Below are positions 4,370-10,747 of a DNA stretch of 35,202 nucleotides, piece after piece. The translations under genes were made by a program, and so were the position numbers. Source of the DNA: an uncultured Planctomycetales bacterium (GTDB lineage: Bacteria > Planctomycetota > Planctomycetia > Isosphaerales > Isosphaeraceae); the NCBI GenBank assembly GCA_903926465.1, contig CAIYJE010000043.1:1-35202 (forward strand), written 5' to 3'. The first letter of the stretch is position 1, and the number at the start of each line of letters is the position of its first letter. The notes below the pieces were generated by a model. The model ran no database searches and was not told the DNA's origin. It saw only the letters and a program-made list of their open reading frames with translations.

Positions 4370-4407
4370 CAGGGCCACTTCTGCCGCTGCACCGGCTTCG
4401 AATTGCT

Positions 4408-4495
4408 GCGGTTCACGATTGGGCGGTAAAGGTGAGACAGCCGCCCTCGGCTGTCTTTTCGGGTTGTTTGTGCGTGCAACCCAATCGTGAACCGC
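4408..4495. repeat. 88-bp MITE-like inverted-repeat element, short form
   Basis: Perfect 16-bp terminal inverted repeats, GCGGTTCACGATTGGG at 4408-4423 and its complement at 4480-4495, flank a core with the hairpin GACAGCCG-CCCT-CGGCTGTC (4436-4455). Both the ends and the core recur in the larger element at 9574-9789, so these are two members of one repeat family. There is no coding capacity. Inner sequence beside the right arm (GTTGCACGCAC) also matches the inner arm of the larger element. Confidence 0.8.
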
Positions 4496-4673
4496 CACCA
4501 GGGAGAAATCTCGCCCCATCCATGAGATCATTCCCTGAAATCCAGGGGGCGATTCGCCAAAATGGGAACAGGTATTTCGCGGTATCTGAGCCCGTCCCTA
4601 TTTTGAACCGGTTTCCGTGCGATGACAGAAGAGCCTGAATCCTGAGCATTTTTCACAAAGTGCAACTGCCGCA

Positions 4674-6739: not shown

Positions 6740-9235
6740 ATGAGCAAGCCCAAGGCCCGTCGAACCGGGCGTTCCGTCCCTTCACGACCGGCCTCCACCG
6801 AAGACTCCCGGCCCAGCTCAGGGCAAGGCAATCGCACAGGGGAGCCTGAATTCGATCGCCTGCCCTCCATCATTCCACTGCTGCCGCTCAGGGCCGACGT
6901 GGTCTTTCCCCAGACCATTTCTCCGCTCATTGTGAATCGACCGAGCGGAATCAGGCTCCTGGATGAGAGCCAGGTTGGAAATAAACTACTGGGCCTGGCC
7001 ACCCAGCTCCGCTCCGACATCGATGACCCAACCCGCGACGACCTTTACCCGGTCCTGTGCGTGGGTTCCATCCTCAAAATGCTCAAGTTCCCGGACGGCA
7101 GCACCCGGGTGGTGATGCAGGGCGTGGCCCGCGCCCGACTGGTGGAAATTGTTCAACACGAACCGTATCTGCTCGGCAAAATTGAGCCCTTGGAAGAGGT
7201 TTCCGTGTCGGGCGTAGAGGTGGAAGCCCTGGTCCACCATGTAACGCACCTGTTTGATCGCATGGTCGAGCAAAGTGCCCAGGTGCCTGAAGAACTCCAG
7301 GTTGCGGTCATGAACACTCGCGACCCTGGCCGCCTGGCCGACCTGCTGGCCTCCAGCCTGCCGTTCCCCATCGAAGAAAAACAAAGGGCTCTGACCGAAC
7401 CGAACGTCAAGGCACGCCTGGAGTTACTGGGCCCGCTGGTGGCCCGCCAATTGGCCGTGATGGAACTGGCCGGCAAGATCCAGGCCCAGGTTGGGTCCGA
7501 ACTGTCTCGCGTGCAACGCGAACACTTCCTCCGTCAGCAGATCAAGGCCATCCAGGAAGAACTCGGCGAAGGCGAGCCTGAGAATCCTGAGATGTCTGAT
7601 CTCGCCAAACGCATTGAGGCCGCCAGCCCGCCAGCCGACGTCAAGAAAGAGGCCAATCGCGAGATCGACCGCCTGAACGACATGCATCCCAGTTCGGCCG
7701 AATTCTCGATCGTCCGTACCTACCTCGACTGGATTGCCTCACTCCCCTGGGCCAAGGCCAGCAAAGACCGACTCGATCTTAAACGGGCCCGCAAGGTGCT
7801 CGATACCGATCATTACGACCTCGAAAAAATCAAAAATCGGATCCTGGAATATCTGGCAGTCCGCAAACTCAAAAACGACATGAAGGGGCCGATCCTCTGT
7901 CTGGTTGGCCCACCCGGGACCGGTAAGACCAGCCTGGGGCGCTCGGTGGCCAAGGCGCTCGGACGCGAGTTCGTACGAGTGAGCCTGGGCGGAGTGCATG
8001 ACGAGGCCGAGATCCGGGGCCATCGCCGAACCTACGTGGCGGCCATGCCTGGCCGGATCATCCAGGGCATTCGCAAGTCCGGTACCAACAACCCGGTCTT
8101 CATGCTCGACGAGGTCGATAAGCTTGGCGCAGACTTCCGCGGCGATCCGTCGGCCGCTTTGCTGGAAGTGCTCGATCCCGAGCAAAACAGCACGTTCCGA
8201 GATCACTACCTGGACCTGGATTTTGACCTCTCAAACGTGATGTTCCTGGCCACCGCCAACTCGCTAGACACCATTCCAGCGCCCCTGCTGGACCGGATGG
8301 AAGTTCTTGAACTACCCGGCTACAGCGAGGAAGAAAAATCGCTCATCGCGCACAAGTTCATCATTCCGAAACAACTGGAGGCCCATGGACTCCAGCAAGA
8401 CGACCTTGTGCTGGTGGAAGCCGCGGTCCGAAGAATTATTGCCGACTACACCCGCGAAGCCGGCCTGAGAAACCTTGAGCGCGAAATTGCCACGGTCTGC
8501 CGCAAGGTGGCCCGCCGGTTCGCGGAAGGGAAGCGGAAGAAGGCCACCATCGAAGCGGCCGAGATTCCCACGTACCTTGGCCCCGCCCGTTACTACCGGG
8601 AAGTGGCAGACCGTACCGGGACCCCAGGAGTGGCCACGGGCCTGGCCTGGACCCCGATCGGAGGCGAGATCCTGTTCGTGGAAGCCACAGCGGTACCCGG
8701 CAAGGGAAGCCTGACCCTGACCGGCCTGCTGGGAGACTCCATGAAGGAAAGCGCCCAAGCCGCCCTGACCTATCTGCGCACCAAGGCCAAGGCGCTCGGC
8801 ATTGATGCCAGCCGCATCTCCCGGACCGATCTCCATATTCATGTGCCCGCAGGCGCGGTTCACAAAGACGGCCCGTCGGCCGGCGTGGCAATTTCTTCGG
8901 CTCTGATCAGCCTTTATTACGATAAAGCCATCCGCAAAGATCTGGCGATGACAGGCGAGGTCACCCTCACGGGCCGGGTTCTGCCCGTGGGTGGAGTTCG
9001 TGAGAAAGTTCTTGCCGCCAGGCGCGCGGGCATTACCCACGTCTTGATCCCTCGGCATAACGAGAAAGACCTGATCGATCTGCCCGTTGAGGTCAAGAAT
9101 GACCTCACGTTCCACATCGTTGAGACCCTCGACGATGTGCTTGAGCACCTTTTCGTTGAGAAAGCCCCGCAAGGTCGCAAGACTACAAGTCGGGGGACTG
9201 CCCAAACTCAACCCAGACGAGCTCAACGGCCCTGA
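6740..9235 (+). CDS. lon: Lon protease (endopeptidase La)
   Basis: This is an ATP-dependent cytosolic protease that degrades misfolded and regulatory proteins. The 831 residues contain, in order: a disordered basic leader (about 1-40), the N-terminal substrate-binding LAN domain (about 41-240), a helical linker (about 240-385), the AAA+ module, and the C-terminal protease domain. The AAA+ module has Walker A GPPGTGKTS from 390 and Walker B with D457 and E458. The protease domain has the Ser-Lys dyad at S713 (KDGPSAGVAI) and K756 (VREKVLAARR). The 43-residue spacing equals that of the E. coli dyad. The tail after about 805 is a short unstructured extension. It stands alone, with 156 bp separating it from the M50 gene. 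No heat-shock element could be identified. Confidence 0.98.
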   Translation: MSKPKARRTGRSVPSRPASTEDSRPSSGQGNRTGEPEFDRLPSIIPLLPLRADVVFPQTISPLIVNRPSGIRLLDESQVGNKLLGLATQLRSDIDDPTRDDLYPVLCVGSILKMLKFPDGSTRVVMQGVARARLVEIVQHEPYLLGKIEPLEEVSVSGVEVEALVHHVTHLFDRMVEQSAQVPEELQVAVMNTRDPGRLADLLASSLPFPIEEKQRALTEPNVKARLELLGPLVARQLAVMELAGKIQAQVGSELSRVQREHFLRQQIKAIQEELGEGEPENPEMSDLAKRIEAASPPADVKKEANREIDRLNDMHPSSAEFSIVRTYLDWIASLPWAKASKDRLDLKRARKVLDTDHYDLEKIKNRILEYLAVRKLKNDMKGPILCLVGPPGTGKTSLGRSVAKALGREFVRVSLGGVHDEAEIRGHRRTYVAAMPGRIIQGIRKSGTNNPVFMLDEVDKLGADFRGDPSAALLEVLDPEQNSTFRDHYLDLDFDLSNVMFLATANSLDTIPAPLLDRMEVLELPGYSEEEKSLIAHKFIIPKQLEAHGLQQDDLVLVEAAVRRIIADYTREAGLRNLEREIATVCRKVARRFAEGKRKKATIEAAEIPTYLGPARYYREVADRTGTPGVATGLAWTPIGGEILFVEATAVPGKGSLTLTGLLGDSMKESAQAALTYLRTKAKALGIDASRISRTDLHIHVPAGAVHKDGPSAGVAISSALISLYYDKAIRKDLAMTGEVTLTGRVLPVGGVREKVLAARRAGITHVLIPRHNEKDLIDLPVEVKNDLTFHIVETLDDVLEHLFVEKAPQGRKTTSRGTAQTQPRRAQRP

Positions 9236-9285: not shown

Positions 9286-9379
9286 GGTCTTGCTTCTCAA
9301 GCGTTTTTGGTCGTGGCGTGGCCCGTGAGGGGCCCACGGCTGCGTTATGCTCGGGTTGTCTGATATCAGCCTGAATCGC

Positions 9380-9533
9380 AAGTTTTGAAATTGAACTTTT
9401 GGAATCACAGCCCGCAACATTTCAACGGACGGGGTACTCCTGTTAGCCCGCCGCGTAAGCTTTGAATTTGTGCTTTTGAGCCCCGAGTCCCCAAAATAGC
9501 AGCGGACGGGGTACTCCTGTTAGCCCGACGCGT
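9380..9533 (+). repeat. Two tandem 77-bp repeat units
   Basis: Units run 9380-9456 and 9457-9533. Their 31-bp ends (9426-9456 and 9503-9533) share CGGACGGGGTACTCCTG and TTAGCCCG followed by MCGCGT, differing at one position. Their beginnings (AAGTTTTGAA and AAGCTTTGAA) also match at the same 77-bp offset, while the middles are diverged. Confidence 0.85.
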
Positions 9534-9573
9534 GATCGAGGGATTCTTCGTGTCAGTCTTTTTTCAGGGGTTT

Positions 9574-9789
9574 TATAGCGGTTCACGGTTGGGTTGCACA
9601 CGAAAGGATTTGCTTGGTGTAACGCCTCAGTGTCTTGATCTTCGTTCGATGTAGGACAGCCGCCCTCGGCTGTCATCTTCGTGACGGCCCAGGAATTCAG
9701 AGACAGCCGAGGGCGGCTGTCCTACATACGGAAAAGGAACACCAGGAAAGGCGCTCAGTCTGTGTGCAACGCAAATGTTAACCGCTATA
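9574..9789. mobile_element. 216-bp MITE-like element with nested palindromes
   Basis: Terminal inverted repeats of 28 bp (9574-9601 and 9762-9789) match at 24 of 28 positions and begin TATAGCGGTT. Inside are perfect 26-bp inverted repeats (9649-9674 and 9702-9727) around a 27-bp spacer. Each of these arms is itself a hairpin, GACAGCCG-loop-CGGCTGTC. No transposase or coding frame is present, which fits a non-autonomous element or a structured intergenic repeat. Related to 4408-4495. Target-site duplication is not obvious. Confidence 0.7.
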
Positions 9790-9815
9790 TTCCCAACCAA
9801 GAAAAGCCCCAAGAG

Positions 9816-9940
9816 ATCCACTCGCTCACGCTTCGGGCTCGTATCAGAAAAGGATCCCTCGCTCACGCGTCGGGCTCATATTTCCGGCGTCTTGTTCAGA
9901 AAACCCCAAGAAACGCAACTTCAAAGCTCATGCGACGGGC
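9816..9940 (-). repeat. Inverted partial copies of the left repeat units
   Basis: The segment 9854-9876 is the reverse complement of 9522-9544 at 22 of 23 positions. The segment 9816-9839 is a diverged copy of the same motif. The segment 9911-9940 is the reverse complement of 9446-9475 at about 24 of 30 positions. Together they mirror the left units across the MITE-like element. Confidence 0.75.
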
Positions 9941-9997
9941 CATATCGCAGTTCTTCAGTTTGGCCAAGGGGCGTATCACGCCAAAAGAAACAGCCTG

Positions 9998-10465
9998 TTA
10001 CGCAATGCGGGTGTCAATTGCCGTCTCAACCTTGCGTTTGCGGTTCCAGTAAGCCGCCTGCAGCAGCCCGAAAATCACAGCGGCAGACTCCAGCGTGCTC
10101 CCGTCCCGATAAAACGGCTGCGTGAGAAGGAATACCAACAGAGCCTGAGCGTTCATCCCATCGGCCTGGTTCCAGGCCGAGACCGGCAACCGGCCGATCG
10201 AGATTGCCAAAGACGCCAGTCCCACGGCCAGCGCCTGATAGAGCCAACCTCCGCACGCCTTGGTACCGAATCGAACCCCCAGCCCCACCAAGGCTCCTGC
10301 CGCGGGAGCGAGCGGCCAGAGCCAGGCATCGAAAAGCAACCACCCCAGCCAGGCAAGCAAGGTTGCGAGCATCGCTGCAAGCGAACCACACACCACTCCA
10401 CGCCACACAAGGCCGATGTTTGTAAACCGATCCCGCCCCAATGTGGTCACATTCGCAAGTGTCAT
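9998..10465 (-). CDS. Small membrane protein, unknown function
   Basis: From the ATG at 10465 this is 155 residues; a TTG at 10489 would add 8. I do not recognise the family. Hydrophobic stretches near residues 20-45 (GVVCGSLAAMLATLLAWLGWLLF), 48-65, 78-92 and 108-115 suggest three or four membrane segments, ending in a basic tail (NRKRKVETAIDTRIA). It faces lon convergently across the repeat-rich gap and is divergent from the next gene. Codon use is ordinary for the window. It may be a lineage-specific planctomycete protein. Confidence 0.65.
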   Translation of the reverse strand: MTLANVTTLGRDRFTNIGLVWRGVVCGSLAAMLATLLAWLGWLLFDAWLWPLAPAAGALVGLGVRFGTKACGGWLYQALAVGLASLAISIGRLPVSAWNQADGMNAQALLVFLLTQPFYRDGSTLESAAVIFGLLQAAYWNRKRKVETAIDTRIA

Positions 10466-10747
10466 ATCAGCTTGAGATTTCAAGGACAAGGGATTCTCGA
10501 ACTGCCGGCATTATCTGGTTGAATTGATCCTACCAGATCGTTCGGCCTGAGGCTCCTTATCATCCGGCATGGTTGTTACGGCCCACCTTTCCGGGACAGC
10601 CAGAGTAAGCGTTTTGAACGGCGGCTCCGTTGCTCCAGGCACGCCCGGCCGCCCAGGGCCCGGAATTCACCAATCAGAGATGCGCAGGAAGGCCGATACG
10701 CAAATCGAAGACATGACGTTCACTGCCCATCCCCCCCGAGGATCTCA

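Follow-up and report, generated by a model that had tools for sequence, protein, structure and literature searches.

Nested repeats in a planctomycete intergenic gap: a short-repeat cluster, a probable IS630-type MITE and a REP-type hairpin pair

The gap between two converging genes of an Isosphaeraceae genome holds a nest of three layers: an outer cluster of short repeats, a 216-bp MITE within this cluster, and a pair of hairpins within the MITE. The window, i.e. the whole stretch of 35,202 nucleotides analysed here, is contig C43 of a 6.89 Mb draft genome comprising 207 contigs. The nest is located between lon (6740-9235, with Lon domains) and a reverse open reading frame at 9998-10489 (163 aa), for which no Pfam match was found. 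We read the layers as a time sequence, in which an old cluster was entered by a young IS630-type MITE already carrying the REP dimer, and assign to this reading a probability of about 0.82. A single planctomycete intergenic gap would then record three repeat-insertion layers differing in age. The first-pass annotation had described nested inverted repeats around a MITE-like core, and had offered serial insertion of non-autonomous elements or a structured RNA or DNA signal as explanations. The observation is real, and is largely explained as nested mobile repeats.

All the inverted repeats claimed in that annotation are present, with the identities it gave. In the outer layer, about six short repeats of the AGCCCGACGCGTGAGCGAGGG type form a symmetrical cluster. 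Its left half (9368-9573, forward strand), which has relatives without a MITE at other loci of the genome, comprises three repeats arranged head to tail, the first (degenerate) from 9368 and the others from 9445 and 9522. The tandem 77-bp units previously placed at 9380-9533 correspond, in a shifted register, to 9368-9444 and 9445-9521, which are 73% alike. The right half (9790-9940, reverse strand) exhibits repeats at 9839-9819, 9876-9855 and about 9940-9925, the last being recognised by eye within the arm at 9911-9940. Two outer inverted pairs are found, namely 9522-9548 with 9850-9876 (27 nt, 93%) and 9446-9475 with 9911-9940 (30 nt, 80%). The MITE occupies 9574-9789 on the forward strand, its 216 bp counted with the TA that flanks either end (TA/TAGCGG ... 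CCGCTA/TA, where slashes mark the ends of the element). Its terminal repeats (TIRs), each 28 nt with the target TA, are at 9574-9601 (forward) and 9762-9789 (reverse) and match at 24 of 28 positions (86%). Further inside is a perfect 26-nt inverted repeat (9649-9674 and 9702-9727), each arm of which is itself a hairpin with an 8-bp stem and a 4-nt loop (predicted fold, z = -5.6). The fold and the genome matches define GTAG-tagged hairpins of the REP type at 9651-9674 (left, forward) and 9702-9725 (right, reverse), and the 27-bp spacer between them (9675-9701, forward) is not inverted in the window copy. As neither the outer 22-mer nor the inner 24-mer gave any match with up to three mismatches in 100 shuffles of the window, the short repeats of these two layers are not due to chance.

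Neither the core nor the outer repeat is restricted to this gap, since the same genome contains at least 27 copies of the MITE, of 216-218 bp, and 40 matches to the outer repeat; the proposed refutation of a mobile or repeated element, by a single copy without relatives, thus fails. The figure of 27 is a lower bound: scoring covered 40 of the 164 candidates from the first look, and incomplete copies (C67:252565 and C65:17814, for instance) were left out. Both ends are clear in 26 of the 27, the right end of C55:71298 being degraded. The main family comprises 25 copies; 24 of them are 91.2-98.6% identical to the consensus (20 of these at 94.9-98.6%), and C62 is at 86.6%, a value lowered by its flipped spacer. 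The copies on C184 and C121 form a subfamily, 75% alike to the window copy, and were excluded from the consensus alignment, the age comparison and the conservation test, while C10, which has another payload, was excluded from the 216-bp set. The flanks vary between copies. On C169, two copies (L062; 21805-22020 and 24269-24484) lie 2.2 kb apart in opposite orientation and flank a decayed Y1_Tnp gene. The element thus exhibits the features of a bacterial MITE: it is short, multi-copy, bounded by TIRs and too short to encode a transposase.

The ends of the MITE read TA/TAGCGGTT...AACCGCTA/TA, with the imperfect 28-bp TIR pair TAGCGGTTNACG..TTGCACAC, and the insertion site is YTAR. Among 28 aligned entries (the 27 copies and C10, a different TIR element), the preceding base is a pyrimidine in all 28. 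A purine follows in 26 entries as they stand, and in 27 once a register shift allows for a 1-bp deletion in C8; only the window copy, with a T on its right flank, then departs from the pattern. Nine copies of the outer cluster without a MITE could be aligned, the alignment of C168 being poor in its central part. At the empty site on C182 the sequence is TTTTAAGCC, and the filled sites on C43 and C98 have TA on both sides of the element, i.e. one extra TA of exactly 2 bp. Among the nine empty clusters, a TA at the site is particular to C182; the other eight are without it. The duplication of the target TA, seen in the comparison with the empty site and in the YTAR flanks, is a characteristic of IS630/Tc1-mariner-type elements and, by analogy, is probably the mark of this mechanism. 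IS630 itself reportedly exhibits a preference for CTAG. For ISY100, 34 of 39 products were inserted in TA with duplication of the TA, according to the available part of PMC2170065. Serial insertion of non-autonomous elements consequently holds for the core, given its copy number, its terminal repeats and the 2-bp duplication relative to the empty site. It does not hold for the outer symmetry, which is not the insertion of one element and belongs to an older inverted cluster that is found elsewhere without the core.

The 40 matches to the outer repeat were obtained with up to two mismatches, and the control gave none. In the stretches examined, 12 of 28 outer clusters contain the repeat in both orientations. 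The hairpin of the outer repeat is weak (z = -1.9). Three genes with a Y1 transposase domain, on C25, C177 and C169, the last with an internal stop, are bordered on both sides by repeats that are, by eye, similar to the outer repeat, though not identical, and that also fold weakly (z = -1.2, -1.0 and +0.9). These bordering repeats suggest that the outer repeat may have originated with a tyrosine transposase. The idea of a general planctomycete repeat was dropped, the exact 22-mer being found in 2 of 294 genomes of the phylum, own genome included. The Y1_Tnp genes of L117, L119 and L120 are bordered by inverted repeats of the AGCCCG/GAGCCG type, in gene-specific variants. Because 20 of the 25 main-family MITE copies are 94.9-98.6% identical to their consensus, whereas the outer clusters are 60-83% alike among themselves, we consider the cluster to be the older layer.

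The MITE on C98 occupies the same position in another copy of the cluster, reversed with respect to the window copy. The two cores are 96% alike and have no derived changes in common (six are particular to C43 and three to C98), and the two clusters are 80% alike over 290 columns. On account of the unshared changes and the reversed orientation, the C98 copy is best read as a probable independent insertion. One insertion copied together with its cluster, the core being flipped later between the terminal repeats, is an unlikely alternative. The shared site with opposite orientations, the 30 bp of identical left flank and the inversions that do occur within the element, as in the spacers of C62, C184 and C121, would fit such a history, but a single insertion should diverge like its flanks unless it was later homogenised, which is not the pattern of these cores. 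Six of the 27 copies, the window copy among them, have at least one of the 40 outer-repeat matches at a distance of up to 500 bp. The expected number is 0.14 for placement anywhere in the genome, and 0.9 or 1.4 if 15% or 10% of the genome, both assumed figures, is open to insertion. None of the 24 elements of a related 96-bp class is located within 500 bp of the outer repeat. With a looser outer motif, the counts in the stretches examined are 9 of 28 MITE entries (C10 included) and 0 of 24 of the 96-bp class. These counts are in line with an insertion preference for the outer cluster.

Within the MITE, the 26-bp arms exhibit an unpaired GTAG at the foot of the hairpin and are arranged head to head, 27 bp apart. 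The hairpin motif has 113 matches in the genome with up to two mismatches and none in the reversed control, and the pair is present in all 27 MITE copies. Unpaired GTAG, a short hairpin, a high copy number and head-to-head dimers are all features of GTAG REPs. Free pairs or groups, without TIRs at the thresholds used, are found on C25, C94, C70, C16, C180 and C106, and those on C131, C51 and C119:79122 keep traces of TIRs. In the 24 copies used for the conservation test (without C62, owing to its flipped spacer), the hairpins deviate from the consensus at 15 of 1152 positions and the remainder of the element at 200 of 4032, so that the hairpins are about four times less diverged. Variable columns number 10 of 48 in the hairpins and 92 of 168 in the remainder (p = 1.4e-9, an overstated value since the sites are not independent). 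In the older 96-bp family (21 copies), the hairpin is not specially conserved, its rate of change being 14.9%, compared with 16.8% for the TIRs and 18.4% for the other positions. Three of the 27 copies (C62, C184 and C121) have the spacer in inverted orientation with respect to the linkers, that of C62 scoring 27 of 27 in reverse, which points to probable recombination between the hairpin arms. Exchange between the arms could also keep them alike. No cognate RAYT flanked by the inner hairpin was found in the flanks examined on C129, C72, C64, C131, C25 and C177, a weak absence in a draft genome where the C129 flank is cut by the contig start. We therefore use the label "REP type" without assigning the hairpin to a known RAYT. 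A complete MITE copy with its hairpins lies 293 bp before the domain match of the decayed Y1 gene on C169.

The proposed order of events would be as follows. An inverted short-repeat cluster would have spread through the genome and then diverged. An IS630-like transposase (DDE, TA-specific), a family that we infer, would have moved the young 216-bp MITE in trans, and the MITE would have inserted at a TTAA-like site in the cluster centre with duplication of the TA. The head-to-head GTAG-hairpin pair, a REP dimer presumably acquired from free dimers, would already have been aboard and copied as a passenger. No autonomous IS with matching TIRs was found among four PF13358 matches in the own genome and four in G014, a relative from the host's own family, although this absence is weak in a 207-contig draft with one PF13358 match at a contig end. 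One gene of G014 (L124) has an end-like match of 21 of 28 alongside, facing away. An autonomous parent was not found by eye near lone TIRs in 20 stretches of the own genome, nor beside the atypical TIR copies of G028, G029 and G003.

An assignment of the TIRs to a tyrosine transposase instead of an IS630-like enzyme is very unlikely. The TA duplication observed against the empty site speaks against it; IS200/IS605-type enzymes are not known to make such a duplication. A TIR relic (L116:1207-1234, 24 of 28) does lie 32 bp past the stop of the RAYT gene on C129, which passes the NF047646 cut-off (82.5 versus 80 bits). Among 22 of 30 RAYT loci scanned in six genomes, however, a TIR is present in the examined flanks of only two, in one case 1.3 kb away. 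TIRs beside RAYT genes are described in the available part of PMC3733652, in which such an arrangement is a "TIRtron" (Di Nocera 2013).

Maintenance of the entire nest as a functional RNA or a terminator between lon and the converging frame is scarcely credible: the conservation of the hairpin arms and a very strong predicted fold (9360-9960, z = -15.2 against 20 shuffles) could be cited for it, yet any long inverted repeat yields such a z, which is thus no evidence of function, the same element occurs at 27 places in the genome, no Rfam match reached the gathering threshold, and terminator-like matches number 1 versus 1.4 expected. Two two-sided changes in the hairpin arms both keep pairing (11 are one-sided), and in the TIRs 62 changes are one-sided and two are two-sided, neither giving a Watson-Crick pair; this is too little to count covariation as evidence of RNA structure. 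The structured signal of the first-pass annotation thus receives little positive support from Rfam, the terminator scan or the paired-arm changes.

Elements with similar ends and other contents are also found. Copies of core length were not found in 58 relatives, of which three have short end or hairpin matches (at most 13 candidates scored per genome), and no match was found in plasmids, phages and viral contigs by blastn of the core or by exact pattern of the hairpin pair. Of 45 genomes of the order, 5 contain a match to a 25-mer TIR pattern with up to one mismatch. In the own genome, where the survey covers 100 of 132 TIR matches with pairing up to 420 bp, there are at least 24 TIR pairs of 88-101 bp, which mostly contain a single hairpin (by eye). 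One of these is a second element in the window (4404-4499, forward), of the 96-bp class, with one GACAGCCG hairpin and TIR scores of 20 and 24 of 28. At about 4556-4620, the window contains a palindrome like the AAAATGGGGACAGG...CCAGTCCCCATTTT repeats upstream of the C129 RAYT gene (L116, first 360 bases). The survey also revealed at least two elements of 152-153 bp with another hairpin, one without a clear hairpin (C74:12610-12756), and two with outer-type repeats inside and weaker ends (C9:31925-32083 and C10:29504-29722, second TIR 19 and 20 of 28, respectively).

Elsewhere in the family, G014 has a TIR element of about 276 bp holding a C-rich inverted pair, and G029 one with a C-rich hairpin (L152). 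In G028, from another genus, elements of 171-178 bp exhibit similar TIRs around a head-to-head GTAGGGGCG GTAG pair, with one GTAG abutting the TIR as in the 96-bp elements; at eight of nine loci read, both TIRs score at least 18 of 28. An element of about 80 bp in G028 (L157:1498-1580) has apparently lost most of the hairpin pair. In G345, of the same genus as G028, the GTAGGGGCG pair is present at six places without TIRs, and on its C19 a partial RAYT match below the cut-off adjoins this pair. When compared by eye, any two of the three TIR consensus sequences (own genome, G014, G028) have 24 of 28 positions in common. We tentatively suggest, at less than even odds, that an Isosphaeraceae family of TA-specific TIRs has repeatedly picked up the hairpin repeats common in each host and shuttles such REP hairpins by means of a DDE transposase, the pair being flipped by recombination between the arms. 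The payloads would be GTAGGACAGCC in the own genome, GTAGGGGCG in G028 and C-rich hairpins in G014 and G029. If this is true, a DDE transposase spreads repeats that are usually credited to tyrosine transposases. The MITE that carries REPs, whose payload is apparently exchangeable, is the part that merits further study: REP-dimer MITEs with similar ends and unrelated hairpins across genera offer a concrete, testable second route of REP spread where a matching RAYT is not seen.

Several known systems resemble parts of the nest. Within the own genome, the IS630-family IS on C73 has 27-bp ends that, by eye, begin with TA/TAGC and end with a TGCRC-like motif. The middle of its TIR differs from that of the MITE, which rules it out as the parent. 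RUP of Streptococcus pneumoniae and Correia/NEMIS of Neisseria are likewise small, many-copy MITEs of the IS630 type with TA ends and TA duplication, and RUP is reported to favour regions of IS elements (available parts of PMC2229807 and PMC2817692). The RUP TIRs match those of the resident IS630-Spn1, whereas such a match was not found for the window MITE, and the same parts of these two papers report no REP-dimer payload. The inner hairpins share with REP/BIME and RAYT systems, as far as described in the available parts of Nunvar 2010 (PMC2817692) and PMC3733652, the GTAG tag, the 8-bp stem, the short loop, the dispersion and the head-to-head dimers, here with a 27-bp spacer. In contrast to these systems, many copies of the inner hairpin ride inside TIR elements, and a RAYT bordered by the inner REP was not found in the genome. 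In the literature searched, no report of a REP-carrying MITE nest in Isosphaeraceae was found. A close precedent is a passing note on Anabaena variabilis, in which GTAG-15 dimers lie within long TATAGGA palindromes (Di Nocera 2013, PMC3733652, available part). As in the window, a long inverted repeat beginning with TATAG surrounds a GTAG-REP dimer, and the arrangement recurs within one genome, although the sequences are different and the phylum is distant. In that paper, the palindromes are regarded as targets for insertion, and none devoid of REPs was found; the enclosing repeat described here, in contrast, is a MITE that duplicates TA and occurs with other payloads as well. The parts of the nest are each of a known general kind; little has been written on their combination, or on how it recurs in related bacteria with other hairpins.
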